Assembly: GCA_028277405.1 (NCBI GenBank)
Contig: JANQGH010000059.1
Span: forward strand, 1 to 64,000
Direction: 5' to 3'
Source of the DNA: Alphaproteobacteria bacterium
Lineage (GTDB): Bacteria > Pseudomonadota > Alphaproteobacteria > DSM-16000 > Inquilinaceae
DNA length: 64,000 bases
The number at the start of each line of letters is the position of its first letter. Position 1 is the first letter of the stretch. The notes under the pieces are model-generated. The model saw nothing but the letters and a program-made list of their open reading frames with translations. It had not been told where the DNA came from and made no database searches. This document shows positions 32,001 to 49,844 of this stretch, piece after piece. The position numbers and the translations under genes are program-made.

Positions 32001-32770
32001 GCGAGCGTGTCGCGCTCGTTACCGCAGCGGCGTCCGGCATCGGCCGGGCCATCGCCGCGGAACTCGCATCAACCGGGTGGCGGGTAATTGTCGCCGATAT
32101 CGATGAGGTGGGCGCCCAGACGGTGGAGGAACTGGGCACGGGCCACGTTTTCGTCCAGTGTGATATTGGTGATCCCGATCAGGTCAGCGCCTTGATGACG
32201 CATGTGTCGGGGCAATTCGAGCAACTCGATACCCTGGTCAACAACGCCGGCATCTCCAAACCCGCCCTGATCGGCGAACTCGATCGTGCCGATTGGGATC
32301 GGATCATGGCCGTCAATCTCGGTGGCGCGTACCAGTTGACCCAAGCGGCGCTGCCGATGTTGCGCCGCGCGACCGCGGCGAGCATCGTCAACATTTCCTC
32401 CATCCATGCCCAAACGGTCCTGCCCGGCATGGTGGCTTACGCTGCCAGCAAGGCGGGCCTGGACGCGTTTACGCGCAGTCTGGCGATCGAACTCGGCCCA
32501 AAAGGCATCCGCTCCAATGCCGTCCTGCCCGGTTTTGTCGCAACACGTCAATGGACCGATTGGCTTGACGGGTATGACCGGGAAAGACGCTCTCGTATCG
32601 AGGCGGAAATTGCGGCGTGTGTGCCGTTGGGACGGCCATGCGCGCCGGAGGAGATTGCCCGCGTCGTTCGCTTCCTCGCCGGTCCGGATGCATCGTGCAT
32701 CAACGGCGTCAGCCTGCTTGCCGACGGGGGCCTGTCCAACCGAAGCTACCTGCTGCCCAGCGCCGGCTGA
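31997..32770 (+). CDS. Short-chain dehydrogenase/reductase (SDR)
   Basis: The 257-residue classical SDR has ALVTAAASGIGRAIA (the glycine-rich NAD(P) motif with Ala for the first Gly), NNAG, SIVNISS with catalytic Ser, YAASKAGL with Tyr and Lys, and a final NGVSLLADGG. An Asp at the end of beta-2 (VADID) suggests NAD rather than NADP. Embedded in a sugar ABC operon, it probably oxidises a sugar alcohol or sugar acid. Substrate unknown. Confidence 0.88.
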   Translation: MSERVALVTAAASGIGRAIAAELASTGWRVIVADIDEVGAQTVEELGTGHVFVQCDIGDPDQVSALMTHVSGQFEQLDTLVNNAGISKPALIGELDRADWDRIMAVNLGGAYQLTQAALPMLRRATAASIVNISSIHAQTVLPGMVAYAASKAGLDAFTRSLAIELGPKGIRSNAVLPGFVATRQWTDWLDGYDRERRSRIEAEIAACVPLGRPCAPEEIARVVRFLAGPDASCINGVSLLADGGLSNRSYLLPSAG

Positions 32771-32773
32771 ATC

Positions 32774-33892: not shown

Positions 33893-33922
33893 GAGCGTGT
33901 CGACGATGGAGAAGGAACGACC

Positions 33923-35243: not shown

Positions 35244-35945
35244 TCAGGTACGCGATGGAGAGCTCTGAAGATGCTCGTCGATGGCAATTGCCGCGGCTTT
35301 CAGATGCTCGCTCATCGCCTGCTCCGCTGCGGCCGGGTCGGCCTTTTCCAGCCCATCGATGATTCTCTTGTGCTCCTGCTGTGATGCTGCGCGGCGCTCG
35401 AAGGATCTGAAGGGCATCCTCTGATAGGGGGCGATGCGCAGGCGACAGAACTCTACTGCGTCGGCAAGGTCCTGGTTCTGGGTTGCAGCGATGACCGCGC
35501 TGTGGAACCTGCGGTTTTCAAGCGCGTAGCCGTCCACGTCGCCTTCCTGGTGGCAAGCTTCACAGGCCCGATGGACCTTCTTGAGCCGGCCGAGTTCTAC
35601 TGCCGTGATTCGCGAGGCTGCAAGCCGGGCACAGAGTGATTCCAGCAATATCGATGCCTCGCACAGGGATGAAACGCGTTCCGGCTCGACCCCCCTCACG
35701 ACGGAGCCTGAATGCGGCTTGCTCTCGGCCAGTCCCGCAGAAACCAGTTGCTTCAGAGCCTCCCGGACGGGCGTGCGCGACACGCCATATTCTTCGGCCA
35801 GCGACCGTTCGTCCAAACGCGATCCCGGCTTGAAGACACCGACAAGAATATCGTCCGCTATGTGTCTGCGCAGAACGTTGGCAAGGGTATCGCCGGGCTC
35901 GACCTTAAGCATTGATCGAGAACGTTTAACAGCTTCTGAAGCCAT
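35244..35945 (-). CDS. GntR-family regulator with FCD domain
   Basis: The 233-residue protein has a GntR winged helix (LRRHIADDILVGVFKPGSRLDERSLAEEYGVSRTPVREALKQLVSAGL) and an all-helical FCD ligand domain with metal-type residues in NRRFHSAVIAA and EHKRIIDGL. FCD regulators usually sense small carboxylates. It is divergent from the TctCBA genes, with a large palindrome between, and is their likely controller. Confidence 0.9.
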   Translation of the reverse strand: MASEAVKRSRSMLKVEPGDTLANVLRRHIADDILVGVFKPGSRLDERSLAEEYGVSRTPVREALKQLVSAGLAESKPHSGSVVRGVEPERVSSLCEASILLESLCARLAASRITAVELGRLKKVHRACEACHQEGDVDGYALENRRFHSAVIAATQNQDLADAVEFCRLRIAPYQRMPFRSFERRAASQQEHKRIIDGLEKADPAAAEQAMSEHLKAAAIAIDEHLQSSPSRT

Positions 35946-36001
35946 TACAAGCCGACCTTCCCATCACCCATCCCGACATGCCAGACCATCCTGCCCTGAA
36001 G

Positions 36002-36041
36002 CCATATTGTATTCCTAGATAACCGATGGTATGCAATATGG
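36002..36041. promoter_or_regulatory. Long inverted repeat upstream of tctC, probable GntR operator
   Basis: CCATATTGTATTCC (36002-36015) is matched in reverse by GGTATGCAATATGG (36028-36041), 12 of 14 bases complementary, with the outer 8 perfect. It lies in the divergent region between the FCD regulator and tctC. Each arm contains a TTGTAT/ATGCAA-type GntR half site. Confidence 0.55.
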
Positions 36042-36120
36042 CGATGAAGAATGCAAACCCGGTTTGTTTGCGCAGAATCCGCGCCCATGAAGGTGCACGG
36101 AGAAACTTGGGAGGGAAATC

Positions 36121-37104
36121 GTGAACGCTTCGACCACGCGGCGGAATACCGTCAAAACAATCGTCATCGCGCTTGGCCTTGGTACGTGCCTTACCGCCTT
36201 GCCGGCCGCAGCGCAGTTTCCCGAGAGCCCGGTTACCTTGGTCCTGGGATCGACCCCGGGGTCGGCGCCTGACATTCTTGGCCGCATCGTCGCGGAAGGC
36301 ATGTCCGAGGTCCTGGGCCAGCCTGTCGTGGTCGAAAACCGGCAGGGTGCAAATGGCTCGATCGCGGCAACGCAGGTCGCCCAGGCCGAACCGGACGGCT
36401 ATTCCCTGATGCTGATGACGGCCGTTCACTCGATCACGCCGACGACCAGAAGCGATCTGGAGTATGATTTCAACGAGGATTTCCGGGGTGTTGGCATGGT
36501 CGCCTCGGTGCCGCTTCTGTTCGTCGTCAACAACGAGTTGGGAACGCCCGACATGGCGTCCTTCGTCGAGCGGGCGCGCGAAGGAGATATCTTCTATTCG
36601 GTCCCGGGTATCGGCTCGATCCAGCAGCTTGCGACGGAAGAGTTCGCCGACCGCGCCGGCATCGAGATGACGGTCGTGCCCTATCGGGGCGGCGGCAACG
36701 CGACCAATGCGGTCATTGCGAACGAGGTTCAGCTGTTCTTCGCCGGCATTCCCCCCGCGTTGCCGCACGTTGAATCGGGTGCGCTGACCGCCCTGGCGAT
36801 ATCCACGCCGGAAAGATCACCAGCGGCACCCGATGTGCCGACAATGGTCGAACTGGGGTATGATGGCCTCGTCGCGGACAACTGGCACGCGCTTTATGTC
36901 CGATCGGAAACGCCGGACGACGTTGTCGCGACCTTGTCGGAGGCGTTGAACACGGTCCTTGCCAGGCCGGAGACCGCGGAGATGTTCCTGAATGTTGGCG
37001 CTACCCCTTGGGCCAACTCGCCCGATGAGCAGACCGCATTCGGCCATGGCGAGGTGGAACGCTGGCGAAACGTTATTGACGAGCAGGGCCTGACCTTCGA
37101 CTAA
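36121..37104 (+). CDS. tctC: Tripartite tricarboxylate transporter binding protein (TctC/Bug family)
   Basis: The 327-residue periplasmic protein has an N-terminal signal peptide (TIVIALGLGTCLTALPAAAQ) and Bug-fold motifs VTLVLGSTPGSAPDILGR, VVVENRQGANGSIAATQVAQAEPDGYSL and VPYRGGGNATNAVIANEVQLFF. Bug proteins bind carboxylates through a water-bridged beta-alpha loop. A GTG start at 36121 follows GAGGG. It is the first gene of the TTT operon. Confidence 0.92.
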   Translation: MNASTTRRNTVKTIVIALGLGTCLTALPAAAQFPESPVTLVLGSTPGSAPDILGRIVAEGMSEVLGQPVVVENRQGANGSIAATQVAQAEPDGYSLMLMTAVHSITPTTRSDLEYDFNEDFRGVGMVASVPLLFVVNNELGTPDMASFVERAREGDIFYSVPGIGSIQQLATEEFADRAGIEMTVVPYRGGGNATNAVIANEVQLFFAGIPPALPHVESGALTALAISTPERSPAAPDVPTMVELGYDGLVADNWHALYVRSETPDDVVATLSEALNTVLARPETAEMFLNVGATPWANSPDEQTAFGHGEVERWRNVIDEQGLTFD

Positions 37105-37225
37105 AGGCCGGCAAGGCGGGGCGGGCTCGAATGCACGCCCCGCTTGAACGCGGCGCTAAGGGACGGAGCCATCTGCCGCTCGCCCACATCCGAGGTACGC
37201 TCTCATCGCCGCTCCGACACAGGAT

Positions 37226-37699
37226 ATGGACCCTCAAGACCGCCTTGCACCGACCCGGACCTTGATCGCGAGGAATCGGATTGCCGGTGCGGTCATCGCG
37301 GTGGTCGGCGTATTCGTCGTCGTGGAAGCGCTGGGCTACGGCTTGGGGTCAATCTTCCGGCTGGGGCCGGGCGCGCTGCCGTTTGCGCTCGGCATCCTCC
37401 TGATCCTCTCCGGTGCGCTGGTTGCTGTTGTCAACGACGACGGTCACGAGGCTGCGTCCCGCATCGCTTGGCGGCCGCTTGTGGCCGTTCTTTCCGCCCT
37501 TCTGGCCTTTGCGCTCTTGATCGAGTCTGCCGGGCTCTTGGCCGCTACCGCCGGGCTCGTCATCATTTCTGGTTTGGCCGACCCCGACCATACCTGGCGC
37601 AGTCTTGGTGCGATCTACATCTTCCTCGTCGTCGCGGTCTACATAGTCTTCGTCCGGCTTCTGGCGATCCCCTTTGATCTGATCAGTGGCGTTCTTTGA
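37226..37699 (+). CDS. tctB: Tripartite tricarboxylate transporter small permease (TctB)
   Basis: The 157-residue protein has four predicted spans, with GLGSIFRLGPGALPFALGILLILSGALVAV in the first half, the hallmark of TctB. It joins tctA through a TGATG overlap at 37697-37701. It lies 121 bases after tctC, in an otherwise compact operon. Confidence 0.88.
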   Translation: MDPQDRLAPTRTLIARNRIAGAVIAVVGVFVVVEALGYGLGSIFRLGPGALPFALGILLILSGALVAVVNDDGHEAASRIAWRPLVAVLSALLAFALLIESAGLLAATAGLVIISGLADPDHTWRSLGAIYIFLVVAVYIVFVRLLAIPFDLISGVL

Positions 37700-39201
37700 T
37701 GGATATCCTGTCCAATCTCGCTCTCGGATTTCAGGAGGTCCTCACCCTAGAGACGTTGAGTTTCTGCCTGTTCGGGGTGACGGTGGGCATGCTCATCGGT
37801 GTCCTGCCCGGCATCGGGGCCATGGCCGCCATCTCAATGCTGCTGCCGATCACGTTTTACCTGGAGCCCGGCCAGGCATTGATCATGCTGGCCGGCATCT
37901 ATTATGGCGCGCAATACGGCAACTCCATCGCCTCGATCCTTCTCAACGTGCCGGGAACGCCGTCCGCCGCCGTCACGGCGCTGGACGGCTACCCGCTGTC
38001 GAAACTGGGCAAGGCGGGGCCGGCGATCTTCATCACCACCGCGGCCTCGTTCGCTGGCAGTTGCTTTGCCATCGTCTGCCTTGCCGCCTTTTCACCGGTC
38101 ATCGCGGGTGTCGCCCTGGCTTTTGGCTCGGCTGAGTACTTTGCGCTGATGGTTTTCGGCCTGGTCACGGCGTCCACGGTCGCGCCGGGCTCGCAGATCA
38201 AGGGGATTGCGATGGTCGTGGCCGGGTTGATCCTCGGCCTGGTCGGCACGGACATCACCTCGGGCACGTTCCGCTTTACGTTCGGTCTGATTGAACTGAC
38301 CGACGGTCTGACCCTGGTCGCCGTGGCCATGGGCGTATTCGGCGCGACCGAGGTCATCAACAACCTCAGCCGCAAGATGCACGACCGCGGCGCGGCCAGG
38401 CGCGTTCGGATCAGGGAGTTGATCCCGACAGGCGCGGACATGAAACAGGCGGTCAAACCGATGATGCGGGCCGCACCCCTCGGCACCTTCCTAGGCGTCT
38501 TGCCGGGCGCAGGGGCGACGATCGCGGCCTTTGTCGCCTATGGGCTGGAGACCCGTGTCGCCAAGGACCGGCGCCGTTTCGGCAAGGGTGCCATCGAGGG
38601 GATCGCCGCGCCGGAGACCGCCAACAACGCGGCGGCGCAGGGCTCGTTCATTCCGACCCTGTCGCTCGGCATTCCCGGCGATGCGGTTATGGCGCTGATG
38701 CTCGGTGCGCTGCTGATCCATGGCGTCCAGCCCGGGCCGCAGCTGATCGGCGATCATCCCGAAATCTTCTGGGGGCTGCTGGCGAGTTTCTGGATCGGCA
38801 ATTTGATGCTTCTGATCATGAACATCCCGTTGATCGGGGTTTGGGTCAGGATCCTGTCGATCCCTTACAAGTATCTCTATCCCTGCGTTCTGATGCTGAT
38901 CTGCGTAGGGGTCTATAGCGTTCACAACAGCGGCTTCGACCTCTTTGTGGTGGTGGCTTTCGCCGCCATCGGCTACGCGATGTCAATCGCCAAGCTGTCT
39001 CCCGCGCCGATGCTGCTGGGCATCGTCCTTGGCGTGATGATGGAGGACAATCTGAAGCGCGCGATGCTGCTGTCGCGCGGCGATCCGTTGGTGTTTCTCG
39101 AGCGCCCGATCTGCGCCGTGCTGCTGGGGCTGAGCCTGCTGATGCTGATCTGGCCGCTCGGGATGCGCCTGGTTCGCCGCGTTCACCGTTCGAGGGCCTG
39201 A
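37699..39201 (+). CDS. tctA: Tripartite tricarboxylate transporter large permease (TctA)
   Basis: The 500-residue protein has about 12 spans. Both TctA repeat signatures are visible: GVLPGIGAMAAISMLLPITF followed by YYGAQYGNSIASILLNVPGTP, and GVLPGAGATIAAFVAYGLE followed by FIPTLSLGIPGDAVMALMLGALLIHGVQPGP. It forms the transport channel with TctB. The ATG at 37699 overlaps the tctB stop. Confidence 0.94.
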   Translation: MDILSNLALGFQEVLTLETLSFCLFGVTVGMLIGVLPGIGAMAAISMLLPITFYLEPGQALIMLAGIYYGAQYGNSIASILLNVPGTPSAAVTALDGYPLSKLGKAGPAIFITTAASFAGSCFAIVCLAAFSPVIAGVALAFGSAEYFALMVFGLVTASTVAPGSQIKGIAMVVAGLILGLVGTDITSGTFRFTFGLIELTDGLTLVAVAMGVFGATEVINNLSRKMHDRGAARRVRIRELIPTGADMKQAVKPMMRAAPLGTFLGVLPGAGATIAAFVAYGLETRVAKDRRRFGKGAIEGIAAPETANNAAAQGSFIPTLSLGIPGDAVMALMLGALLIHGVQPGPQLIGDHPEIFWGLLASFWIGNLMLLIMNIPLIGVWVRILSIPYKYLYPCVLMLICVGVYSVHNSGFDLFVVVAFAAIGYAMSIAKLSPAPMLLGIVLGVMMEDNLKRAMLLSRGDPLVFLERPICAVLLGLSLLMLIWPLGMRLVRRVHRSRA

Positions 39202-39218
39202 ATGCGCACGGTCTTGGT

Positions 39219-39240
39219 CCTGTTCGATTCATCGAACAGG
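39219..39240. repeat. 22-bp near-perfect palindrome after tctA
   Basis: CCTGTTCGAT (39219-39228) is perfectly complementary to ATCGAACAGG (39231-39240), with TC in the centre. As RNA it would form a 9-bp stem with a TTCA loop. No T-run follows, so it is more likely an operator or an mRNA-stabilising stem than a terminator. It lies 18 bases after the tctA stop and 130 bases before the sulfatase gene. Confidence 0.65.
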
Positions 39241-39371
39241 CACACGGCGGAACGTTGCGGCGGCGCCACCTGCCACGGCCGGTTTTCGGCCTGGGAACAC
39301 ACGCTCATGCCCGCCCGCCAGCCCGGCCTATCGCCGCCTCGGCTTCACCGTCCCGAATTGAAGGCACGAAA

Positions 39372-40826
39372 ATGACCGCCAGCAACCTTCTGATCATCAT
39401 GGTCGACGAAATGGCCGCCCAAGCGGTCGGCTGCTACGGCAATTCGGTCGTCAAGACACCCCACATCGATCGTCTTGCCGCGCGCGGGGTCCGGTTCGAC
39501 AACGCCTACGCAAGCTCGCCGATCTGCGTTCCGGCGCGTGCCGCCTTCGCGACCGGCCGTTACCCGCACCAAAGCGGCTATTGGGACAATGTCTTCGCCT
39601 ATGACGGCAAGGTACGCGGTTGGGGCCACCGACTGCAGGAGACCGGCCATCGTGTCACGACGATCGGCAAGCTCCATTACAAGGACGAGATTTGCGACAC
39701 CGGCATCGACGAGCAGATCCTCCCCATGCACCTCTATGGCGGCGGCGACGTCTTCGGGCTGGAGCGCGAGCAGCCGCCGAAACGGCCTCAGAGCGCCGCG
39801 GTTGCCGGCGAAGTGGCCATCGGGGACAGTCAATACACGCGCTATGATCAGAAGATCAGCGCGCTCACCGAGGACTGGTTCGAGACCCGGCTTGCCGATC
39901 AGGGCGACAAGCCATGGGTCTGCTTTTCTTCGTTCATTGCGCCCCACTTTCCGTTCACCGTACCGCAGCGGTATGTCGACCTTTACGACCCCTCGGATAT
40001 CGTCCTGGCGCGCAAGCCGCTCAACACCGAGGGTCGGATCGGCGAATGGTGGAAGGTCCTGACTTTCGGCTACAATTTCGACGACTATTTCCGGGACGAT
40101 GACCATCGGCGGCGCGCGCTGCTTCACTACTATGCGCTTTGCAGCTTCGCCGACGAAAATGTAGGCCGTGTGCTTGCTGCCCTGGAGGCGAGCGACCAGG
40201 CTGAAAACACCGTCGTCATGTTCCTGTCCGATCACGGCGACAATATGGGCGCCCGTGGCCTTTGGGGAAAATCGACAATGTACGAGGAGGCGGCCAAGGT
40301 CCCGTTGATCCTGTCGGGGCCGGGGCTGCCCGAAGGCACCGTGTGCCAGACGCCGGTCGGGCTGGTGGACGCCTACCAGACCGTGCTGGACGTCGTCGGC
40401 GTCGGCTTGACGGAAGAAGAGCGAGGGCTTCCTGGGAGATCCCTCCTGGAGATCGCCCGGGAACCTTACGATCAGTCGCGTCAGGTGTTTGCCGAGTACC
40501 ATGCCTCCTGTGCGCCGACCGGCCTGATGATGCTGCGGCAGGGCCGCTACAAATACATCCACTACACGGGATACGGCGCGGAGCTGTTCGATCTTGAAGC
40601 GGACCCTGACGAAACCAAGGACCTCGCCGCCGATCCGGCCTATTCGGAGCTATTGGCTCAGTTCGAAAAAGACCTGCGCACGCTCGTCGATCCGGAAGAC
40701 GTCGATCGACATGCCAAGGCGGATCAACGTGCGCGATTGGCGGAGCTCGGCGGGATGGCCGCCATCGTCGCCCAGGGCGGCGTAACCCACACGCCTCCCC
40801 CCGGCGAAGACGTCCAACGGATGTAG
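39372..40826 (+). CDS. Sulfatase, Cys-type (choline-sulfatase-like)
   Basis: The 484-residue alkaline-phosphatase-superfamily protein has the sulfatase motif SPICVPARAAFATGRYPHQSG. Cys 52 in C-x-P-x-R should be converted to formylglycine. Metal sites are IIMVDEM (Asp 12) near the start and SDHGDNMG later. SGYWDNV and IGKLHY are arranged as in BetC-like sulfatases. No signal peptide is seen, so it is probably cytosolic. The ATG at 39372 is the start of the conserved region. The TTT transporter upstream may import its sulfated substrate. Confidence 0.87.
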   Translation: MTASNLLIIMVDEMAAQAVGCYGNSVVKTPHIDRLAARGVRFDNAYASSPICVPARAAFATGRYPHQSGYWDNVFAYDGKVRGWGHRLQETGHRVTTIGKLHYKDEICDTGIDEQILPMHLYGGGDVFGLEREQPPKRPQSAAVAGEVAIGDSQYTRYDQKISALTEDWFETRLADQGDKPWVCFSSFIAPHFPFTVPQRYVDLYDPSDIVLARKPLNTEGRIGEWWKVLTFGYNFDDYFRDDDHRRRALLHYYALCSFADENVGRVLAALEASDQAENTVVMFLSDHGDNMGARGLWGKSTMYEEAAKVPLILSGPGLPEGTVCQTPVGLVDAYQTVLDVVGVGLTEEERGLPGRSLLEIAREPYDQSRQVFAEYHASCAPTGLMMLRQGRYKYIHYTGYGAELFDLEADPDETKDLAADPAYSELLAQFEKDLRTLVDPEDVDRHAKADQRARLAELGGMAAIVAQGGVTHTPPPGEDVQRM

Positions 40827-40854: not shown

Positions 40855-40878
40855 CTAAGCCTCTAAGCCTCTAAGCCT
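40855..40878. repeat. Three tandem copies of CTAAGCCT
   Basis: The 8-bp unit CTAAGCCT is repeated three times without change and ends exactly at the first base of the aldolase stop codon complement. It sits between two convergent genes. Copy number could vary by slippage. Confidence 0.9.
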
Positions 40879-41540
40879 CAGCCCGCATGGGCCTCGGCGT
40901 CGGCGGCGGTACCATAGCTCGGCAAGTCGGCCGAACCTTTGGCGTGTGCGGCCATCAGCGTATCCCGGACATAGGCGATTTGCGCCGTTTCTTCGATGAT
41001 CTCGACCAGATACTGCGCTTTCATCAAGGTCGGCCCGACGCCAATCGTTCCGTGATTGGCCAGCACCGCCGCCACGATGCCGCTGTCCCGAAAGACGGGG
41101 CTGATCTCGACTTCCGTCTGTGGTCCGCCATGGCGCGACAGGGGGATCAGCGGCATACGGCCAATCTTCTCGACCGTCTGCACCGTCAGGCACGGGATTT
41201 CCAGACCGGCGCTTGCGTAGCCCGTCGCCCATGGGCTGTGGCAATGGACGACGGCATTGATGTCCTGCCGGATGCGATAAAGGTCGAGATGAAAGCCGAG
41301 ATCCTTGGACGGTTTATGGTCCGAGGGCTCGATGGTCCCGTCCAAATAGGCGACCTGGAGATTGTCCCGGTCGCATTCGTTGAAGCCGATGCCCGACGGC
41401 TTGATGATAATCGCCGCCGCGCTGTCCAGCCGGACCGACAGGTTGCCCCCGGCATTGGTCTGGAGCCTCAGATCGAAGCAGCGCTTCGCGGTCGCGATCA
41501 GCTCATCTTTCTTCGCGGTCAGTTCGCCATGGTCGATCAT
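40878..41540 (-). CDS. Class II aldolase/adducin-family protein
   Basis: The 220-residue protein matches zinc-dependent class II aldolases such as FucA and AraD. It has TNAGGNLSVRL, IIIKPSGIGFN, VHCHSPWATGYASAGL with the HxH zinc pair, and LANHGTIGVGPTL with the third His. The family cleaves or epimerises sugar phosphates. The ATG at 41540 was chosen at the conserved N-terminus. It follows the UPF0261 gene by 16 bases on the same strand, so the two form an operon. Confidence 0.86.
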   Translation of the reverse strand: MIDHGELTAKKDELIATAKRCFDLRLQTNAGGNLSVRLDSAAAIIIKPSGIGFNECDRDNLQVAYLDGTIEPSDHKPSKDLGFHLDLYRIRQDINAVVHCHSPWATGYASAGLEIPCLTVQTVEKIGRMPLIPLSRHGGPQTEVEISPVFRDSGIVAAVLANHGTIGVGPTLMKAQYLVEIIEETAQIAYVRDTLMAAHAKGSADLPSYGTAADAEAHAG

Positions 41541-41556
41541 CACGGGGTCTTTCGGT

Positions 41557-42681
41557 TCAGAGGGACTGCAGGAGCACGCCGACGGCTTTTTCAGCCGCTT
41601 CGGGCGCGGAAATGTGGGCGTCGATCCGCACTGTCTCGTAGGCCTTCGCACGAGACTCCAAAGCACATGCCGCAACGTTGCGCAGATCGGGGTCTTCGAT
41701 CGCGCCGCCCGGGCGATCCTCGCTGGAAAAGCCGCCCATGGGCAAGATGACGGTCGTCGGCGCGGTCGCTTCATTCAGCGCATCGGCCAGTACAGTGCAG
41801 GCCCTTTCCATCTCCTGCGGAGACATCTTTACATGGGTGAAATGCGCCGAGTGCTGGTAGTGGGCTCGGTCGAGATAATCGCGCGGCAGGCTGCCGATTT
41901 CCCCCAGGCCGATGAAGTTAAGGCCCCCCGGAAGCACGACGCGCGGCAAGTGTCCCGCCGCCGTGAAACGGTCCGGCATTGCCAGACACTGCCCCGCGAC
42001 CGTCAGGCGCGTCACTTCGTGTACCGTCATGTCGATCGTGGCCACAAAGGCGCCCTCGCGCGCATACCGCGCGAACGCCAGTCCGCCGTAGCCGTTGGCG
42101 TGAAACGCCGTCGCCTCGTAACCCGCCGCCTCCAGCCGTCGGGTGATTTCGGTGCCGGCGGCCTTCGTGACGCCAAGCGCCGTTACGCCGACGGATTGCG
42201 CGCCGATCGCGTGATGGGCATGTCGGGCGAGCCCGGATACCATCACTGCGGCCCGATCGAAAACATCGCGCAGGCTTGGGTTCAAGCCTTCGATGTCCAC
42301 GACGCTCGGCACCAGCACGATCGGATCATCGGCGACGGCCGGGCGCGGATCGAAAGGCAGCGTGGTTACAAGCACCTTGGGTGTCGCCACGGGCAGATCG
42401 CGCATGATGCGCAGAAGAATGTCGCCCCCGGTGCCGCCGCCAATCCCCAAAACGATAGGGGATCTTTTGCCGGTGATTTCGGCAATCTTGGCGAGCGCTT
42501 CAAGGGCGGCCTGTTCGATGGCGCCAAGCTTGCGCGCGCCGTCCCAAACCTCACCACCGGAACCCAATGATATGTCGACGACGACAACCGACAAACCGTG
42601 ATCCATAAGGACGGTTCGCAGATAGGCAACGGCGTCAGCCTTGGTTTCAACCGTGGCAAGCAGGAGAACCGGATGCGCCAC
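41557..42681 (-). CDS. Tm-1-like ATP-binding protein (UPF0261)
   Basis: The 374-residue protein belongs to the UPF0261/Tm-1-like family. Near its start is VLLLATVETKADAVAYLRTVLMDHGLSVVVVDISLG, then GIGGGTGGDILLRIMRDLP, VTTLPFDPRP, and late GGLNFIGLGE and PMGGFSSED. The family binds nucleotide and appears in catabolic operons, often with a PEP-hydrolase-like partner, which is missing here. A GTG start at 42681 preceded by GAGG is preferred. It is divergent from a GntR regulator. Confidence 0.82.
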   Translation of the reverse strand: MAHPVLLLATVETKADAVAYLRTVLMDHGLSVVVVDISLGSGGEVWDGARKLGAIEQAALEALAKIAEITGKRSPIVLGIGGGTGGDILLRIMRDLPVATPKVLVTTLPFDPRPAVADDPIVLVPSVVDIEGLNPSLRDVFDRAAVMVSGLARHAHHAIGAQSVGVTALGVTKAAGTEITRRLEAAGYEATAFHANGYGGLAFARYAREGAFVATIDMTVHEVTRLTVAGQCLAMPDRFTAAGHLPRVVLPGGLNFIGLGEIGSLPRDYLDRAHYQHSAHFTHVKMSPQEMERACTVLADALNEATAPTTVILPMGGFSSEDRPGGAIEDPDLRNVAACALESRAKAYETVRIDAHISAPEAAEKAVGVLLQSL

Positions 42682-42723
42682 AATCGGCCTCTTCGATGTG
42701 GTTTGGTCAGCGACCGAGCGTAT

Positions 42724-42733
42724 TTGTATACAT
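42724..42733. promoter_or_regulatory. GTATAC palindrome, probable GntR/FCD operator 1
   Basis: TGTATACA (42725-42732) is a perfect palindrome between the UPF0261 gene and the divergent GntR gene. A closely related GTATACAT site occurs upstream of the lactonase gene at 43515. Both fit FCD-type GntR operators built on a GTATAC core. Confidence 0.5.
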
Positions 42734-42813
42734 AACGGCCTCAGAAAATGCAAAATTGATTGTTCTTGTGGAGTGGACTATGTTTTGGCGTCCCTTCCCA
42801 TCGGAAACGTGCC

Positions 42814-43467
42814 TTGTCAGACCCGGACGAAAACCGCAGGCAGCCGCTAGCGCGTGTCATCGAAGCCCAACTGGTCGACGACATTTCTGCGGGTGTGCTT
42901 GCGCCGGGATGCAGGCTCGACGAGGCCAGCCTTGCCAAGCGGTTCGGCGCGTCCCGCACGCCGGTTCGCGAAGCCCTGTCAAGGCTGACGGCACAGGGCA
43001 TTCTCGTTCCGGCGGAACGTCGTGGCGTCCAGATAGCCGAATACTCGCGAGAGCAGCTGGGCCAAATCTTCGAGGCGATGCACGAGATAGAGATCGCCTG
43101 TGCCCGCATTGCCGCGCAGCGCCTTACCCTGTTGACCCGGATGGAGATCGAGACCGCTCAAGCGGCGTGTGTCGAGGCGGCCGAGGCCGGTGACCGGGCC
43201 GCGTTCCTGCGGGCCAACGAGCGTTTTCACCAGACCATCTATCGTGCGACCGGGAACCCCTACATGGCGCAGCTTGCCGGCGATTTCCGGCGGCGAACCG
43301 GGCCATTTCGGGCCAAGAAATTCGTCGACAAGGCGGACCTCGTTCTGGCGGCGGAGGCCCATGAGCGGCTGATGCAGGACATATTCACCAGGAATTCCGA
43401 CACAGCGTCGAACGGGATGACGGCCTATATGACCCAGAGCCTGACCAAGGCACTGGCGGCAAACTAA
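42814..43467 (+). CDS. GntR-family regulator with FCD domain
   Basis: The protein of about 217 residues has a GntR HTH (VDDISAGVLAPGCRLDEASLAKRFGASRTPVREALSRLTAQGIL) and an FCD helical domain with FLRANERFHQTIYRATGNP and EAHERLMQDI, which carry the likely metal ligands. Start is uncertain; a TTG at 42814 behind GGAAA lies just before the HTH. It is between two operons with related palindromes and probably controls both. Confidence 0.87.
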   Translation: MSDPDENRRQPLARVIEAQLVDDISAGVLAPGCRLDEASLAKRFGASRTPVREALSRLTAQGILVPAERRGVQIAEYSREQLGQIFEAMHEIEIACARIAAQRLTLLTRMEIETAQAACVEAAEAGDRAAFLRANERFHQTIYRATGNPYMAQLAGDFRRRTGPFRAKKFVDKADLVLAAEAHERLMQDIFTRNSDTASNGMTAYMTQSLTKALAAN

Positions 43468-43514
43468 GCCGGGCAGGCGACTCCGTCCTGGCGTTGTATG
43501 CAAAACTGTGATTT

Positions 43515-43523
43515 AGTATACAT
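43515..43523. promoter_or_regulatory. GTATAC palindrome, probable GntR/FCD operator 2
   Basis: AGTATACAT contains the palindrome GTATAC (43516-43521), as in the site at 42725. It lies 34 bases before the GTG of the lactonase gene. A second related element, TTGTATGCAAAA, precedes it at about 43494-43505. Confidence 0.45.
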
Positions 43524-43554
43524 GAAGGCATGACCCGTCTTGTGGAGGAACGTC

Positions 43555-44490
43555 GTGGGCGTTGCGGAGACCAAGATCCACCCCATCAACACCGGCTGGC
43601 TTGAGGCCGACCTGGGCACCTACATCTTCTGGAAAGGGCCCGCGGGCAAGAAGTACTGGAACCCGGTTTATTGCCACTATGTCGATACGGGGGCGCACAA
43701 GATCCTGATCGACACCGGGCTTTGCGACGAGGAGCGCGCAACCAAGTACCACCACAAATGCGAAAAGCGCGGCTGCCTGGAGGTGCATGACCACCTTGAG
43801 CAAAAGCTGGGCGTCCATCCCGACGAGATAGACGCCATCGTCTTCACGCATCTGCACTGGGATCACGTGCAGAACATGAAGAAGTTCCGGAACGCTCGCT
43901 ACATCGCGCCCAAAGCCGAAATCGAGATGGCCTACAATCCTCTGCCTCTCTACTACCGAACCTACGAATGCGGGATACTCGGGATCGAGCCTGCTTACGC
44001 CGGGTGCGTTTTCGAGGCCGTGGAAGATGAATGCGAGGTGTTGCCGGGCATCACGATGTTCCACACGCCCGGCCATTCGGTTGGGCACATGGCCGTTACG
44101 GTGGCGACGAGTGCCGGCGATATCGTCGTCGCCGGTGACGCCATCTTTGTCGAGCGCAATCTCGAACCGAATCCGGCGGAGAAATGGCGCTACTGGGTGC
44201 CCGCGCGGTTCGTCAATGCTTACGAAGGCTGGAAGTCGGTGGAAGAGATCGATAAGCGCGCCGACTATGTGCTGCCCTGCCATGACGCGGCCGCTAATGA
44301 ACGGTCTGACATCTTCCCATACGAGGGCATGCCGATGCGCAAGCGCCGGCAGACCATCCCGGGGCTCCCGTTCTATTTCGGCGACATGGCCGGTGGCACG
44401 GCCGACAAGGCGACCCCCGCCATGACGCAGGAGGACGCGGAAGCCTATTTTGCCGGGCTCAGCGACCCCAAGGACATGGCCGAATACTGA
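43555..44490 (+). CDS. Metallo-beta-lactamase-fold lactonase (N-acyl-homoserine-lactonase family)
   Basis: The 311-residue protein has the di-metal motif THLHWDH (His 99, His 101, Asp 103, His 104), TPGHSVGHM, AGDAIF and LPCHD, giving a complete binuclear site. The NCBI-style family name is AHL lactonase, but in a sugar-acid operon a sugar lactone or ester is a likelier substrate. A GTG start follows GGAGGAACGTC. First gene of a four-gene operon with HAD phosphatase, aldolase and kinase. Confidence 0.85.
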   Translation: MGVAETKIHPINTGWLEADLGTYIFWKGPAGKKYWNPVYCHYVDTGAHKILIDTGLCDEERATKYHHKCEKRGCLEVHDHLEQKLGVHPDEIDAIVFTHLHWDHVQNMKKFRNARYIAPKAEIEMAYNPLPLYYRTYECGILGIEPAYAGCVFEAVEDECEVLPGITMFHTPGHSVGHMAVTVATSAGDIVVAGDAIFVERNLEPNPAEKWRYWVPARFVNAYEGWKSVEEIDKRADYVLPCHDAAANERSDIFPYEGMPMRKRRQTIPGLPFYFGDMAGGTADKATPAMTQEDAEAYFAGLSDPKDMAEY

Positions 44491-44497
44491 GCTCGCG

Positions 44498-45340
44498 ATG
44501 CGCATCGTAGAGTCCCTGGCCGAGGTGGCGTCCGACTACGACGCAATCGTCTTCGATCAATGGGGCGTGTTGCACGATGGTCGAACTGGCTACCCGCTCT
44601 CTATCCAGGCGGTCACGGATTTGAACAGCCGGGACCTGTGCTTGGCCGTCTTGTCCAATTCCGGCAAGCGCGCCCAAGCTAACCGCGAGCGGATCGAGGC
44701 CATGGGGTTTTCGCGCGAGCTGTTCGCGGAGATCATGTCTTCGGGCGAGGCCCTTTGGCGGGACATGGCGGCAGGGATCATTCCGGAACGTCGGTTTTTC
44801 GCTATCGAACGTGAGGCCGGCGACGCGGCTCGGTTCGCGGCGGGCCTTGATATCGCGCTCTGCACGGATGTCGCGAAGGCCGACGCGCTCCTGCTGATGG
44901 GCCTGCCCGACAACGGTGCTCTGGACGATTGGGACGCCGTCCTGCGCCAGGCGATCGACCGCGACGTGCCCGCCTACTGTTCGAACCCGGATCGAAAGTC
45001 GCCACGTTCGGGAGGCGTCTTCGTGCTTCAACCCGGCGCCGTGGCCGAGGCATACGAAAACCGGGGCGGCAAAGTGACCTATTACGGCAAACCGCACCTG
45101 CCCATCTTCAACTCACTGCGAAAAGCCCTTGGCATCGACTCTCACCGTCTACTGATGGTCGGCGACAGTATGGAGCATGATATCGGCGGTGCGTCGGCAG
45201 CGGGATGGGACACTCTTTTGATCTGGGGCGGCGTCCATAAGGGTGAACTTCCCCAGGGCGGTACCTGCGGGGGGCTAGACGCCCTTGCCAGATCCATGGG
45301 CGTGCCGCCGCCGACCTACGCCATGGCGGACCTGAGATGA
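44498..45340 (+). CDS. HAD superfamily class IIA hydrolase
   Basis: The 280-residue protein has the HAD nucleophile motif IVFDQWGVLHDG, where the second acidic residue is replaced by Trp as in one HAD-IIA subfamily (TIGR01459). It has LSNSGKRA as motif II, YYGKPHLPIF as motif III and MVGDSMEHDIGGA as motif IV. It probably dephosphorylates a small sugar phosphate. The start overlaps no gene but is 8 bases after the lactonase stop, and the end overlaps the aldolase by four bases. Confidence 0.86.
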   Translation: MRIVESLAEVASDYDAIVFDQWGVLHDGRTGYPLSIQAVTDLNSRDLCLAVLSNSGKRAQANRERIEAMGFSRELFAEIMSSGEALWRDMAAGIIPERRFFAIEREAGDAARFAAGLDIALCTDVAKADALLLMGLPDNGALDDWDAVLRQAIDRDVPAYCSNPDRKSPRSGGVFVLQPGAVAEAYENRGGKVTYYGKPHLPIFNSLRKALGIDSHRLLMVGDSMEHDIGGASAAGWDTLLIWGGVHKGELPQGGTCGGLDALARSMGVPPPTYAMADLR

Positions 45341-46305
45341 CCAACGCCGATCTTCTCAGCCCCGAGTTTCGTGCCCTGTCGGCCCGGCTGGGACAAGATC
45401 CGCTACAGGTCCAAGGGCCCGGCGGCAACACCTCCGTCAAGCAGCACGGCGTGATGTGGATCAAGGCCTCTGGTACGGAACTTGCCAACGCCGCAACACA
45501 GGATATTTTCGTCGCCGTCGACCGCGCTGCGGCCCTGGCCGAGGTGACGGGCGCCGGCGACGGCAGCTGCACCGCGGCGGTTCTGGACCCGAAGGTCACG
45601 CTGAGGCCGTCGATCGAGACCACGTTTCATGCCGCACTGGACTGGCCGATCGTGGCCCACACCCACTCGGTCGCCGCGATCGTGCATGCTATCTCGCCTG
45701 AGGGCCGAACGGCGGCCGCGGATAAGCTCGCCGGACTTCCCACCTCGTTCGTGCCTTACCGGAAGCCGGGCCTGTCCTTGACGCGGGAGGTTTTGCGGCA
45801 TGTGACCGACGACACCCAGGTGATCGTGTTGGAAAATCACGGGCTGATCTGTTGCGGGCGAACCGTTCAAGAGACATCCGACCTGATCGACGAGGTGGAA
45901 CACCGCCTTGACTTGCAAGCGCGCGATATGTCCGCGACGCCTGGCCGCCCGGCACCCGACGGCTTCGAATGGGCGGCCGATGCCGCCGGACTCGGCATCG
46001 ATCCACGCCGCCTGTCACTAGCCCGCGCGGGCTCCTACTACCCGGATCACGTCGTGTTTCTTGGCCCGGCTCTGCCTGTTTCAGAGCTAGATCCGTCACG
46101 CCCCGCGCGGATCGTCGAGGGCGAGGGCGTTCTGATCAAATCTGACGCGTCATCCTCTCAGCGCGCGATGCTGCAATGCCTGTCGGACGTCCTGGCAAGG
46201 CTGCCCGAGGATTGGCATGCCGAACCGATCGGCACCGAAGCCGAGGCGGCGCTGCTGAACTGGGACGCCGAAAAGTACCGTCAGGCCTTGGCCGAACGAG
46301 GCTGA
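45337..46305 (+). CDS. Class II aldolase family protein
   Basis: The 322-residue protein carries an N-terminal class II aldolase domain with GPGGNTSVK, WIKASGT, SIETTFHA (the zinc-region Glu), AHTHSVAA (HxH) and VLENHGLICCG (third His). A C-terminal extension of about 110 residues follows, with no recognised domain. It resembles the aldolase portion of RhaD-type aldolase-dehydrogenases without the dehydrogenase. It sits between HAD and kinase genes, suggesting a sugar-phosphate cleavage step. Confidence 0.82.
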   Translation: MTNADLLSPEFRALSARLGQDPLQVQGPGGNTSVKQHGVMWIKASGTELANAATQDIFVAVDRAAALAEVTGAGDGSCTAAVLDPKVTLRPSIETTFHAALDWPIVAHTHSVAAIVHAISPEGRTAAADKLAGLPTSFVPYRKPGLSLTREVLRHVTDDTQVIVLENHGLICCGRTVQETSDLIDEVEHRLDLQARDMSATPGRPAPDGFEWAADAAGLGIDPRRLSLARAGSYYPDHVVFLGPALPVSELDPSRPARIVEGEGVLIKSDASSSQRAMLQCLSDVLARLPEDWHAEPIGTEAEAALLNWDAEKYRQALAERG

Positions 46306-46308
46306 ACC

Positions 46309-47589
46309 ATGCTGGTCCTGGGCATCGATATCGGCACGTCCGGGGTCCGTAGCGCGGTCCTGGACGATAGCGGGCATCTCGTCTCCCAGGCGCGCGCAGC
46401 CCATGTGGACCAGCCCGCCGACCGGATCGACGCCGAGGGCTGGTGGACGGCCGTTCGACATTGCCTTGCGGCGCAGATGGCCGCGATGCGAGAGGCCGGG
46501 TTCGAGCCCACGGATATCCGCGCGGCGGCAGTCGACGGGACCTCAGGCAGCATGGTGCTGGTCGACGAAGAAACCAGGCCCGTCACCCGTGCACTAATGT
46601 ACAACGCGTCCGGCTTCGACGCCGAGGCGGAACAGATCGCACGGCACGCGCCGGCCAGTCATATCACGCTTGGATCCAATTCGGCCCTGGCCCGGCTCCT
46701 TCGCCTGCAGTCGGAGGATCGCGAAGGCGCGGCACGGATGCTGTGCCACCAAGCGGATTTCATCCTGGCCAAGCTCACCGGCGTGCTTGGCCTGTCGGAC
46801 CAGAACAACGCCCTGAAGACGGGCTACGACCCGGAGGCGGAAACCTGGCCCAGCTGGTTCGAGGCGGCCGGTGTTCGGTCGGCGCTTCTGCCCATCGTCG
46901 TTCCAGCCGGCGCGGAGGCGGCACCGATCGCCGCCGACGTCGCGTCGGACTTCGGCCTGCCGTTGAACCTGATGCTCCGTGCCGGCACAACCGACAGCGT
47001 CGCGGCTTTCCTGGCCACCGGCGCGTCGAAGCCGGGCATGGCAGTCTCCTCATTGGGTACCACGTTGGCGATCAAACTGTTGAGCCCCATGCGGATCGAC
47101 GATCCCTCGATCGGCCTTTACAGCCACAAGGTCGCGGATATGTGGCTTGCGGGCGGCGCGTCGAATTCCGGCGGCGGCGTGTTGCGCGATTTTTTCGATC
47201 CCGACGCGCTGACCGCGCTGAGTGCGCGGATCGATCCCGATTGCGACAGCGGGCTCGACTACTACCCGCTTTCGCGGCCGGGTGAGAGGTTCCCCATCAA
47301 CGACCCGAACCTGCAGCCAAGGCTGTCACCCAGACCCGACAACGACGTTCGTTTCCTGCACGGCCTGTTTCAGGGGATCGCCAGGATCGAAGCTCAGGGC
47401 TACCGCGCGCTGGCCGAGCGCGGGGCAAGCCCGCCGGATTACGTCTATTCCGTAGGCGGCGGTGCGCGCAATGCAACCTGGTGCCGGATCAGGGAACGCG
47501 AGCTCGGCGTGCCGGTGCGCATTGCTGCCCATGACGAAGCAAGCATTGGGGCTGCCAAGCTGTGCCAGCTGGGTGTCGGCTCTCAATAG
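46309..47589 (+). CDS. FGGY-family carbohydrate kinase
   Basis: The 426-residue protein has the FGGY/actin-fold pattern: LVLGIDIGTSGVRSAVLDDSG at the start, AAVDGTSGSMVLVD, SDQNNALKTGYD, LRAGTTDSVAAFLATGASKPGMAVSSLGTT and a late YSVGGGARNATW. It should phosphorylate a sugar, sugar alcohol or sugar acid. It is the last gene of the lactonase-HAD-aldolase operon, three bases after the aldolase. Whether it is a ribulokinase-like or erythronate-type kinase cannot be told. Confidence 0.86.
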   Translation: MLVLGIDIGTSGVRSAVLDDSGHLVSQARAAHVDQPADRIDAEGWWTAVRHCLAAQMAAMREAGFEPTDIRAAAVDGTSGSMVLVDEETRPVTRALMYNASGFDAEAEQIARHAPASHITLGSNSALARLLRLQSEDREGAARMLCHQADFILAKLTGVLGLSDQNNALKTGYDPEAETWPSWFEAAGVRSALLPIVVPAGAEAAPIAADVASDFGLPLNLMLRAGTTDSVAAFLATGASKPGMAVSSLGTTLAIKLLSPMRIDDPSIGLYSHKVADMWLAGGASNSGGGVLRDFFDPDALTALSARIDPDCDSGLDYYPLSRPGERFPINDPNLQPRLSPRPDNDVRFLHGLFQGIARIEAQGYRALAERGASPPDYVYSVGGGARNATWCRIRERELGVPVRIAAHDEASIGAAKLCQLGVGSQ

Positions 47590-47656: not shown

Positions 47657-48628
47657 TCAGGCGATACTACGTGTGACTGAACACGACTTTGCCAAGCTAA
47701 CTGCCCTGCCGCCTCGTTTGCGGAACTGGACGGGCATGACGAGATAACACTGGTCATAAGGCGTCGCGACGGGCGTGTCGCCGTCATAGCCAATCACAGT
47801 TCCCGTCTTGTCGATGCAGTCGCCATTGGCGAAATCATCCACGAATCTGAAGTGATCCGACGACGTGTACACATGCTCGGAGATCTGGACGTGCGTGTGG
47901 CTCGTCTCGGTCACGTTTGGGCGAAAATTGTCCGGAGCCATGCGGCATAGATCGATGAACCCGAGCGCGATGTCGTACGCCGTGTCGGCAGTCTGTTTTT
48001 GCCAGTGCTGCCCCGCCTCAACCTGCAACGCCGTCGCGGCGTCATTCAGGTGGCTGAATCGCCCATAGTCGCGCAGACGCAGCATCGTCGCGTCGTGAAG
48101 TTCGCCGGAGACGACAAAGTTTGGACTGGGAAGCTGCATTGCTAAGGCCAGCGCCTTCGGGTTGCCTCCGGCAACTGCGACCGGCCGCCCTTCGCCCTGC
48201 ATACTGTGGATATCGAGCAGGGCATCCACGTCGTCGATCAAGGGTCGCAGCGCACGCGCGCGGCGAATCTCGACACTTTCCGCGCACCCGTCCAACACGT
48301 CCAGCGCCCACAACCGATTGAGATCCTGATCAACATGCCTGCTCGCTGTCGGCTGGGAAGGGTCGAAGCGCGCATAGGCGTCTGGATTGGCAAAGCAGAA
48401 GGTTAGGCGACCACGCACTGGTCTGATTCCGCTTTGAAGCAAACGGTCCAGAGCGATGGCGCCGGCGATTTCGTTACCGTGCACAATACCGCAGATCATG
48501 AGATGCGGTCCGCTGGTCGAAGACGCGTAGGACCAGACGTACGGAATGCCGCAATTTCCGTCTTCGTAAGCGTCGATGGGGATCCAGTCGAGCTCGACGG
48601 TCGAGTATTTGGCGATGGCGTTTTCCAT
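47657..48628 (-). CDS. Succinylglutamate desuccinylase/aspartoacylase-family zinc hydrolase
   Basis: The 323-residue protein has the zinc site CGIVHGNEIAG (His 50, Glu 53) and ALLDIHSM (His 141), with the carboxylate-binding DQDLNRLW (Asn 104, Arg 105). These match the M14-related AstE/aspartoacylase family, which removes acyl or succinyl groups from amino acids. The ATG at 48628 follows GGAG. It is divergent from a GntR-LacI regulator. Its role may be to deacylate an imported amide. Confidence 0.84.
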   Translation of the reverse strand: MENAIAKYSTVELDWIPIDAYEDGNCGIPYVWSYASSTSGPHLMICGIVHGNEIAGAIALDRLLQSGIRPVRGRLTFCFANPDAYARFDPSQPTASRHVDQDLNRLWALDVLDGCAESVEIRRARALRPLIDDVDALLDIHSMQGEGRPVAVAGGNPKALALAMQLPSPNFVVSGELHDATMLRLRDYGRFSHLNDAATALQVEAGQHWQKQTADTAYDIALGFIDLCRMAPDNFRPNVTETSHTHVQISEHVYTSSDHFRFVDDFANGDCIDKTGTVIGYDGDTPVATPYDQCYLVMPVQFRKRGGRAVSLAKSCSVTRSIA

Positions 48629-48665
48629 GAATTCTCCAAACCGTCGATCTCGCAACGAGCAACCG

Positions 48666-48692
48666 ATTGATTGTTTGCATATTGATTGTTTG
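48666..48692. promoter_or_regulatory. Direct repeats before the GntR-LacI regulator
   Basis: ATTGATTGTTTG is repeated exactly at 48666-48677 and 48681-48692, 15 bases apart, with a partial third copy GATTGTATG near 48699-48707. It lies between the aspartoacylase-like gene and the regulator gene. It is probably an operator for that regulator. Confidence 0.55.
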
Positions 48693-48716
48693 TTCGATCG
48701 ATTGTATGCTCAGCGC

Positions 48717-49844
48717 ATGTCAGCACGCAACCCTGACCTTGAAACCGTGGTGTCGGAGGAGGATCTCGGGCGCATTCTTCGCTCCGAGATCCAGGATCTG
48801 GCGCCCGGCACACGCCTGCCCACCGTTCGGGAGATGATGCAGCAATACGGCGTCACGCTGCATATTGCGCAAAAGGCGCTGCAGGGCCTGAAGGCGGATG
48901 GCCTGGCGACAACCCATGTGGGGCGGGGCACCTTTGTCAGCCACGATCGCGATCCCGGGTTGGCCGGCGCCGAATCGATAGCTTCGTCAAGCAAGACCGA
49001 CAATCTGCGCGTGCTGACGCTGCATCATTTGACCGCCAGCCATCGCGGCGACGTCATCGCCCATTCGCTGCATGACCGCCTGCAGCAGAATGGCCATCGA
49101 TCAATCTCGGTTGCTTACGGCGATGTTGCGACGCTGGAGCAACTGCTGGGGCGCGGCGAGTTTGATTTCTGCGTAATACAGCCGCGTCGCTCGGTCCTGC
49201 CGGTCCGGCTGTTGGATCTGATCCGCACGCGCGCGCGCCATGTGGTGGTCGAGGGGCGCATTCTGGAAAACTTGGACGTGGATGTCGTGGTCCGCGATCG
49301 GCGGGCCAGCGTCGCCATCGCACTGGGGCATTTACTGGAACTCGGCCATCGCCGCGTGATGCTGCTGACCGAGGACCCAAGCGATGCCGTCGGCTATTCC
49401 GAGATCGAAGGCCTCTTCCGGATGTGGCAACAAGCGTCCGGCGTAGGCGGGGAGTGGAGCGTCTGCCACGTGCCGCTCGCCGACACCGACAACGGCGCGG
49501 ATTATGGCGCCGTCACCAGCCATCTTGAAAGCGCCAAACCCGATGCGCGGCCCACCGCCATGCTGGTCTCCGGTCGGTTCGACGAGGCCACTCTCAGAGA
49601 CGCCATTGAGAAGTCCGGACTGAGTATCCCCGACGATTTGAGCGTGGTGCATCTGCGGTCAGCAACGTCGCAGGGCGACGACGGCGTCGGGTTTACGACC
49701 GTCGGCCGCAGTGCCGAGCAGGTTGTGGCGACGTTGCAAGAACACATCGCCTGGCGGGCAGCAAACCCCAAGGCTCCACCACGCACATTGTTTGATCGGC
49801 CGACGCTGACCGTGCGCGGAAGTTCCAAGGCACCGGCCGAATAG
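48717..49844 (+). CDS. GntR-type HTH fused to LacI/periplasmic-binding-like domain
   Basis: The 375-residue protein has an N-terminal winged HTH (RILRSEIQDLAPGTRLPTVREMMQQYGVTLHIAQKALQGLKADGLATTHVGRGTFV) and then a sugar-binding-like domain from about residue 100, with LGHLLELGHRRVMLLTED, DDLSVVHL and a late GFTTVGRSAEQV. This is the AraR-like architecture, in which a sugar or similar ligand releases DNA. It probably regulates the aspartoacylase-like gene and the Dpp operon that starts 83 bases after it. Confidence 0.86.
   Translation: MSARNPDLETVVSEEDLGRILRSEIQDLAPGTRLPTVREMMQQYGVTLHIAQKALQGLKADGLATTHVGRGTFVSHDRDPGLAGAESIASSSKTDNLRVLTLHHLTASHRGDVIAHSLHDRLQQNGHRSISVAYGDVATLEQLLGRGEFDFCVIQPRRSVLPVRLLDLIRTRARHVVVEGRILENLDVDVVVRDRRASVAIALGHLLELGHRRVMLLTEDPSDAVGYSEIEGLFRMWQQASGVGGEWSVCHVPLADTDNGADYGAVTSHLESAKPDARPTAMLVSGRFDEATLRDAIEKSGLSIPDDLSVVHLRSATSQGDDGVGFTTVGRSAEQVVATLQEHIAWRAANPKAPPRTLFDRPTLTVRGSSKAPAE

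Follow-up and report, generated by a model that had tools for sequence, protein, structure and literature searches.

In the 64,000-nucleotide stretch of Alphaproteobacteria bacterium DNA analyzed here (contig JANQGH010000059.1, positions 1 to 64,000; hereafter the window), six enzyme genes and a GntR-type regulator gene at 40878-47589 very probably constitute one regulon for the catabolism of a sugar lactone or keto acid. Our favored reading, to which we assign a probability of roughly 45%, is that this single GntR-controlled regulon breaks down a lactone that derives from a sugar, L-ascorbate or a near relative of it being the most likely one, and that the route is redox-neutral and uses no phosphotransferase system (PTS). 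The six-gene set, which occurs in some alphaproteobacteria, is a real, well-bounded, and strongly conserved sugar-lactone breakdown cluster. A sugar-acid or lactone catabolic operon is of a known kind, and the link to vitamin C is unproved but testable; no paper on this six-enzyme gene set was recognized in searches of the openly licensed PMC literature.

An open reading frame (ORF) check and Pfam and NCBIfam profile matches confirmed the coordinates and families of all seven genes, in agreement with the gene content given by the initial annotation (a lactonase-type enzyme, a kinase, two class II aldolases, and a UPF0261 protein). The central gntR is flanked by two divergent units, UPF0261-AldA running leftwards and MBL-HAD-AldB-FGGY running rightwards behind gntR; the earlier idea of one catabolic unit that is tied to GntR and split into two operons holds. 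The features are as follows:

40878-41540, minus strand: AldA, a class II aldolase-fold enzyme (PF00596, 124.5 bits), the proposed lyase or decarboxylase partner of UPF0261
41557-42681, minus strand: UPF0261 (Tm-1-like) protein (PF23189 and PF06792, above cut-off)
42722-42735, no strand: operator 1, ATTTGTATACATAA, in the UPF0261-gntR gap and kept in relatives
42760-43467, plus strand: GntR/FCD regulator (PF00392, PF07729), start codon uncertain, the conserved part starting further downstream
43492-43525, no strand: operator region 2, CGTTGTATGCAAAA (43492) and TTTAGTATACATGA (43512), in the gntR-MBL gap
43555-44490, plus strand: MBL-fold lactonase-type hydrolase with a GTG start (PF00753)
44498-45340, plus strand: HAD-IIA protein, RbtC-like, with DQWG at motif I (TIGR01459, 160.1 bits against a cut-off of 103.75)
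45337-46305, plus strand: AldB, a class II aldolase-fold enzyme, LalA-like (PF00596)
46309-47589, plus strand: FGGY kinase, D-ribulose kinase-like and RbtB-like (AtXK-1, E 5.5e-105; SePSK, E 1.6e-94)

Conservation of the cluster was examined by tblastn of the window proteins against loci selected through the kinase, namely the best 80 of 525 FGGY relatives, and all locus counts describe that sample. Of the 80 loci, 10 (L020, L021, L022, L024-L029, and L059) had all six enzymes in the order of the window, and eight of these also carried gntR, the exceptions being L029 and L059; L023, whose kinase lies at a contig end, was left unscored. Four further complete loci (L111, L112, L121, and L122) and L113, which ends at its contig end before the kinase, had gntR in five of five cases. 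Near copies among these relatives were confined to L021 and L022. Across the 15 relatives, identity to the window was 71-88% for MBL, 41-62% for UPF0261, 37-57% for HAD, 48-73% for AldB, and 49-77% for FGGY; for AldA it was 60-62% in L029 and L059 and 77-84% in the other 13, and for GntR it was 57-74% in 13. MBL (E up to 1e-40) was found in 4 of 385 genomes of the class and 4 of 398 of the phylum (both counts include the window genome), and its identity was never below 83%. Of 299 phylum genomes, four scored above 400 bits for AldA, and these are the ones with MBL; three more matched AldA at 92.7-96.8 bits. Because UPF0261 was present in all 10 MBL-bearing loci of the 80 and in none of the 70 others, MBL and UPF0261 are core members of the set, and not the "extra" lactonase and Tm-1-like protein that they had been taken for.

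The regulator gene is bracketed by a conserved operator motif. GTATAC lies at 42726 and 43516, one copy in each gap beside gntR, with a third copy at 13656. This hexamer is not rare in the window (3 observed versus 1.84 expected; at least 3 in 28 of 100 shuffles), whereas the extended palindrome TTTTGTATACAAAA is conserved and occurs in both gntR-side gaps of the relatives; the position of the GTATAC palindromes noted earlier, in both gaps, holds, but the bare hexamer is unsurprising. An operator model was built from 26 sites of 13 loci outside the window, taking in each gap the best match to a consensus chosen after viewing the relatives' gaps, a procedure that favors the consensus; L029 and L059, having no gntR, were excluded from training, and no exact site was seen in either locus. 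The three best hits in the 64 kb, at 42722 (23.9 bits), 43512 (15.7 bits), and 43492 (14.6 bits), all fell in the two gntR gaps, and the next reached 8.4 bits. Since 3 of 20 random windows contained a hit of at least 15.7 bits, the two weaker sites (43512 and 43492) are convincing by position and not by score alone. Weak hits of 8.4 and 6.7 bits between the second gntR, described below, and tctC are within chance. GntR would repress both operons through the TTTTGTATACAAAA sites until an intermediate binds.

MBL matched 4-pyridoxolactonase and AiiA-type lactonases, all below their cut-offs (best named-lactonase score, 83 of 325 bits), and its metal ligands are intact, with the HLHWDH motif and the further H, D, and H motifs conserved. 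The AiiA-type matches would also suit quorum quenching, that is, an acyl-homoserine lactonase standing beside sugar genes by chance; the company of UPF0261 and the other enzymes in every one of the 10 MBL-bearing loci and the shared operator motif preceding MBL make this barely conceivable. In another explanation, MBL is no sugar lactonase but splits a compound made of two parts joined by an ester or amide bond, and the halves go to two kinase-aldolase pairs. The pairs UPF0261-AldA and FGGY-AldB would suit two products, and a Thermus plasmid joins UPF0261 and a class II aldolase to a creatininase-type hydrolase and TctCBA, but the closest families of MBL are lactonases, and we regard this explanation as improbable.

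The predicted structure of UPF0261 (predicted local distance difference test score, 88) matched Tm-1 with Z 38.9 over 367-369 residues and acetovanillone-bound Saro_1862 with Z 30.4 over 358 residues. Past these two, the fold search returned single-domain matches only (residues 1-159), which were not taken as functional evidence, and a DUF1537 kinase was not among the listed matches, which excludes nothing. The title of PDB entry 9mpy describes Saro_1862 as a UPF0261 protein with bound acetovanillone, and, according to PMC13101465, acetovanillone catabolism in the same species starts with MarK, a single-component kinase. From this coincidence we infer that Saro_1862 is MarK and hence that UPF0261 proteins can be kinases; by analogy, the window UPF0261 is probably a second kinase, acting on a small molecule. 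A part for UPF0261 in vanilloylacetate cleavage (VceA/VceB) was considered and dropped, since VceB is reported to be a thioesterase and F199 to have homologues of neither protein.

Other UPF0261 loci examined mostly pair the gene with a TIM barrel (for L154 the listing gave no partner gene). The cluster resembles the known pairs of UPF0261 and a phosphoenolpyruvate (PEP)-hydrolase-like TIM barrel, in plant Tm-1 and in bacteria, in that UPF0261 lies beside a lyase-type gene; it differs in that the partner is a class II aldolase, and the window genome keeps the usual pair elsewhere. A PF09370 TIM-barrel partner was not among the seven cluster genes, and the sole PF09370 match of the window's own genome is on contig C76. 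Apart from the cluster, UPF0261 was seen beside a class II aldolase only on the Thermus plasmid (L106, 4873-10578), where genes for a creatininase family protein, UPF0261, the aldolase, and TctCBA lie in a row; this is an independent instance of UPF0261 together with such an aldolase and with a hydrolase of the ring-opening type. In AldA, KPSKD..H, HxHS, and H163 are invariant, and AldA has Asp where aligned fuculose-phosphate aldolases have Glu and chain 6vop has Ala.

HAD, AldB, and FGGY lie side by side in the window (44498-47589), and 58 of the 80 loci had both AldB and HAD no more than 3 kb from the kinase (AldB in 60 and HAD in 64). In S. fredii USDA 205 (L050), an eryA-like kinase gene and, in the eryB position, a GlpD-like gene come before this trio, and a TpiA-like gene and a D-erythrulose-4-phosphate isomerase gene come after it, the isomerase scoring over its cut-off. 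The trio also adjoins rhamnose-type genes in two Aminobacter records, and AldB is ~40% identical to its rhizobial trio counterparts. According to Geddes et al. (2013, PMC3599248), lalA-rbtABC of the S. meliloti erythritol locus serve adonitol and L-arabitol, and the identity cut-offs used there were 49% for LalA, 51% for RbtB, and 40% for RbtC. Compared with S. fredii L050, AldB was 39%, FGGY 47%, and HAD 37% identical, all below those cut-offs. In our own reading, AldB, FGGY, and HAD are the counterparts of LalA, RbtB, and RbtC, names that we assigned by gene order, and the trio is a diverged relative of the rhizobial lalA-rbtBC pentitol module. As in the Sinorhizobium meliloti module, genes for a class II aldolase, an FGGY kinase, and a HAD protein adjoin; the trio differs in its order HAD-AldB-FGGY, in being joined to MBL, AldA, UPF0261, and GntR, in having no polyol kinase or dehydrogenase in the window unit, and in identities of about 35-50%. 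The trio is found within erythritol-type polyol loci of both Sinorhizobium (L050) and Actibacterium (L067), and, among the matches, motif I of the TIGR01459-like HADs of pentitol-type trios (L012-L099) reads DQFG, DQWG, or DQYG.

The nearest solved relatives of the FGGY kinase are AtXK-1 and SePSK, with similarity over the full length; we take these to be the names of the two proteins, which the structure listing gives as a putative xylulose kinase and a probable sugar kinase. Neither protein is known to belong to a lactonase operon. SePSK has D-ribulose kinase activity, and AtXK-1 is little stimulated by D-ribulose, according to PMC4880283. The ribulose contacts given there for SePSK (Asp8, Thr11, Ser12, Ser72, Asp221, and Ser222) are all six kept in the window kinase as D7, T10, S11, S79, D229, and S230, a pairing derived by hand with the chain numbering offset by 2. 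By these residues and its overall similarity, the window FGGY kinase resembles a D-ribulose kinase.

These families bear on the initial annotation's likening of the set to four-carbon acid-sugar routes. AldA is distantly OtnC-like, its plasmid relatives include the aldolase of a threonate/erythronate operon, and the OtnK-OtnC-OtnI pathway likewise places a kinase beside a class II aldolase-fold decarboxylase. However, AldA scored 91.3 bits, far under the 250-bit cut-off for the tetronate decarboxylase OtnC (NF043034), the kinase of the cluster belongs to another family, and no DUF1537 kinase, dehydrogenase, or OtnI-type isomerase was matched among the seven cluster proteins by Pfam and NCBIfam profiles. 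Moreover, the kinase and the trio, which resembles the pentitol module, indicate five carbons. The likeness is thus not upheld, and an erythronate or threonate pathway is very improbable.

The link to ascorbate comes from an importer. In the relatives, a CUT1 sugar ATP-binding cassette (ABC) importer is encoded between UPF0261 and gntR; its binding protein, the nearest solved relatives of which are named sorbitol and sugar binders, is present in 12 of the 15 loci (not in L029, L059, and L111). A plasmid search with this binding protein matched 706 records, and the five best contexts (Tateyamaria, Thalassococcus, Ensifer, and two Variovorax) were examined; all five had genes annotated as cytochrome b561-domain and SMP-30/gluconolactonase proteins. 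PF03188 matched the b561 gene of three contexts at 24.8-32.2 bits (cut-off, 23), the SMP-30 gene was Pfam-checked in two of the five, and L-idonate 5-dehydrogenase was found in the Thalassococcus and Ensifer contexts, that of Thalassococcus with an NCBIfam score of 369, below the cut-off of 469. PF03188 is an uncommon domain, matched in 8 of the 299 genomes at E up to 0.001 and in 5 over the cut-off. On a tree, the Tateyamaria and Thalassococcus binding proteins joined the one of the Planktomarina cluster (99/99), within the range spanned by the cluster's binding proteins; because the binding proteins of both contexts interleave, one importer serves two lactonase-bearing enzyme sets that differ. 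Cytochrome b561 uses ascorbate, and the opened form, 2- or 3-keto-L-gulonate, leads to L-idonate or L-xylulose, so that ascorbate would fit both importer contexts. We tentatively take the cluster substrate to be L-ascorbate or a direct derivative, at slightly less than even odds.

The same regulon and chemistry might instead serve an aldonate or a sugar lactone other than ascorbate, such as a pentonolactone, a hexonolactone, or a sulfated compound of this kind. The sorbitol and sugar binders nearest to the importer, the known role of the trio in pentitols, and the TctCBA and sulfatase genes of the window variant favor such a substrate; nevertheless, no dehydrogenase or isomerase that would turn an aldose, alditol, or aldonate into a ketose was found in the cluster, and the importer's other contexts had cytochrome b561 in five of five, making it somewhat unlikely.

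Several observations weigh against ascorbate and the route proposed below. The PF03188 scores are barely over the cut-off, gndA and HbpS-like genes but no idonate dehydrogenase were listed in the Tateyamaria region, and the importer contexts number only five and are related, the Variovorax pair consisting of near copies. The PF03188 gene of the window's own genome lies near neither the cluster nor the importer in question and lends no support; moreover, the CUT1 importer lacks a close counterpart in this genome (best match, 33-34% identity), so the ascorbate link reaches the window only by way of relatives. On the enzyme side, UlaG, the L-ascorbate 6-phosphate lactonase, was not among the profile matches, and the equation of Saro_1862 with MarK is our own. 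In HAD phosphatases, motif I is DxD, which provides the nucleophile and the acid/base Asp; in HAD this motif reads DQWG in the window and in all relatives but one (14 of 15), L028 having DQFG, so that the second Asp is missing, the other motifs being intact by eye. Because of this loss, phosphatase action, and with it step 6 of the route, is uncertain: the family in "HAD phosphatase", as the gene had been labeled, stands (TIGR01459 over cut-off), but the activity is doubtful. Finally, TctCBA and the sulfatase were seen beside the cluster in 1 of 15 relatives (G393), and similar cassettes exist without the cluster.

The known Ula/Yia route for L-ascorbate employs the UlaG lactonase, the FGGY kinase LyxK, the UlaD decarboxylase, and the UlaF epimerase. 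Its logic of an MBL-fold lactonase, an FGGY kinase, and a class II aldolase-fold enzyme recurs in the cluster, which differs in matching no UlaG, in having ABC or TctCBA import and not a PTS, and in the extra UPF0261, AldA, and HAD. A UlaD paralogue was not found, the window genome (97.7% complete) having one OMPdecase match, PyrF-like by eye. The proposed ascorbate route is unlike the known one.

In the route that we propose, uptake would be by the CUT1 ABC importer in most relatives and probably by TctCBA in the window, with the sulfatase freeing a sulfated form (step 1). MBL would open the lactone to a keto-hexonate, which would be 3-keto-L-gulonate if the substrate is ascorbate (step 2), UPF0261 would phosphorylate the keto-hexonate with ATP (step 3), and AldA would remove C1 as CO2, or cleave, to leave a pentulose phosphate of the L-xylulose type (step 4). 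LalA-like AldB might then alter C4 by aldol chemistry or cleave the ketose phosphate (step 5), HAD might strip a misplaced phosphate (step 6), and FGGY would make D-ribulose 5-phosphate for the pentose phosphate pathway (step 7). This order was chosen because it uses all six proteins and fits a D-ribulose-type kinase, and it is quite unlikely to hold in every step. In the main alternative, the FGGY kinase and a retro-aldol cleavage by AldB would come first and give 3-oxo-tetronate, from which UPF0261 and the OtnC-like AldA would produce dihydroxyacetone phosphate; the evidence does not separate the two orders. At its fullest, the proposal is of a new ascorbate pathway of marine and soil alphaproteobacteria, fed by ABC or TctCBA importers and composed of an AiiA-like MBL that opens ascorbate as its lactonase, a UPF0261 keto-acid kinase with an AldA-type decarboxylase, and a LalA-RbtBC-type pentulose module, the window variant taking ascorbate 2-sulfate through a cytoplasmic sulfatase; we consider it unlikely that all of these parts are right together. 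If true, it would be a PTS-free ascorbate route, a UPF0261 (Tm-1-like) protein would gain a metabolic role next to a class II aldolase, and TIGR01459 HAD proteins that lack the acid/base Asp would gain a role open to testing. Were the substrate another lactone, the six-gene set would still be a conserved pathway ready for assay.

Next to the cluster, the window carries a conserved block at 35244-40826 that the initial annotation had not included:

35244-35945, minus strand: second GntR/FCD regulator, divergent from tctCBA (PF00392, PF07729; 67% identical in G393)
36121-37104, plus strand: TctC (PF03401)
37226-37699, plus strand: TctB (PF07331)
37696-39201, plus strand: TctA (PF01970; 78% identical to its counterpart beside the G393 copy of the cluster)
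39372-40826, plus strand: sulfatase-family hydrolase (PF00884) with a CVPAR motif and no obvious signal peptide by eye (78% identical in G393)

TctCBA (36121-39201) is a tripartite importer and probably the transporter of the window variant; ascorbate 2-sulfate as its feed is a guess. The GntR-TctCBA-sulfatase block also lies beside the same cluster in G393, with two more sulfatase-like genes there. L020-L028 extend less than 1 kb past AldA and do not cover the TctCBA flank; no TctA or sulfatase match was found past AldA within ~5 kb in L029 and L059, 7 kb in L113, or 10 kb in L123. In G393, the three sulfatase-family genes, with C-x-P-x-R motifs, lie in a row next to TctCBA (L118, 1641-6160), and only the middle one is close to that of the window.

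Elsewhere in the window, a second FGGY kinase of the xylulokinase type (278 bits against a cut-off of 380) lies in 57432-60849, adjoining an IclR regulator and a 363-aa ORF (59758-60849) without a Pfam match. Genes at 30262-34963 encode a CUT1-type ABC importer, the permeases and ATPase of which compare with those of the cluster importer at ~31% and 44%, respectively, and an enolase-superfamily (MR/MLE) gene within this region (32774-33892) perhaps marks a second sugar-acid system. Directly after the FGGY kinase of the cluster, on the opposite strand, is an AstE/AspA-type deacylase gene (47657-48655), divergent from the gene of a GntR-LacI-type hybrid regulator (48576-49844).

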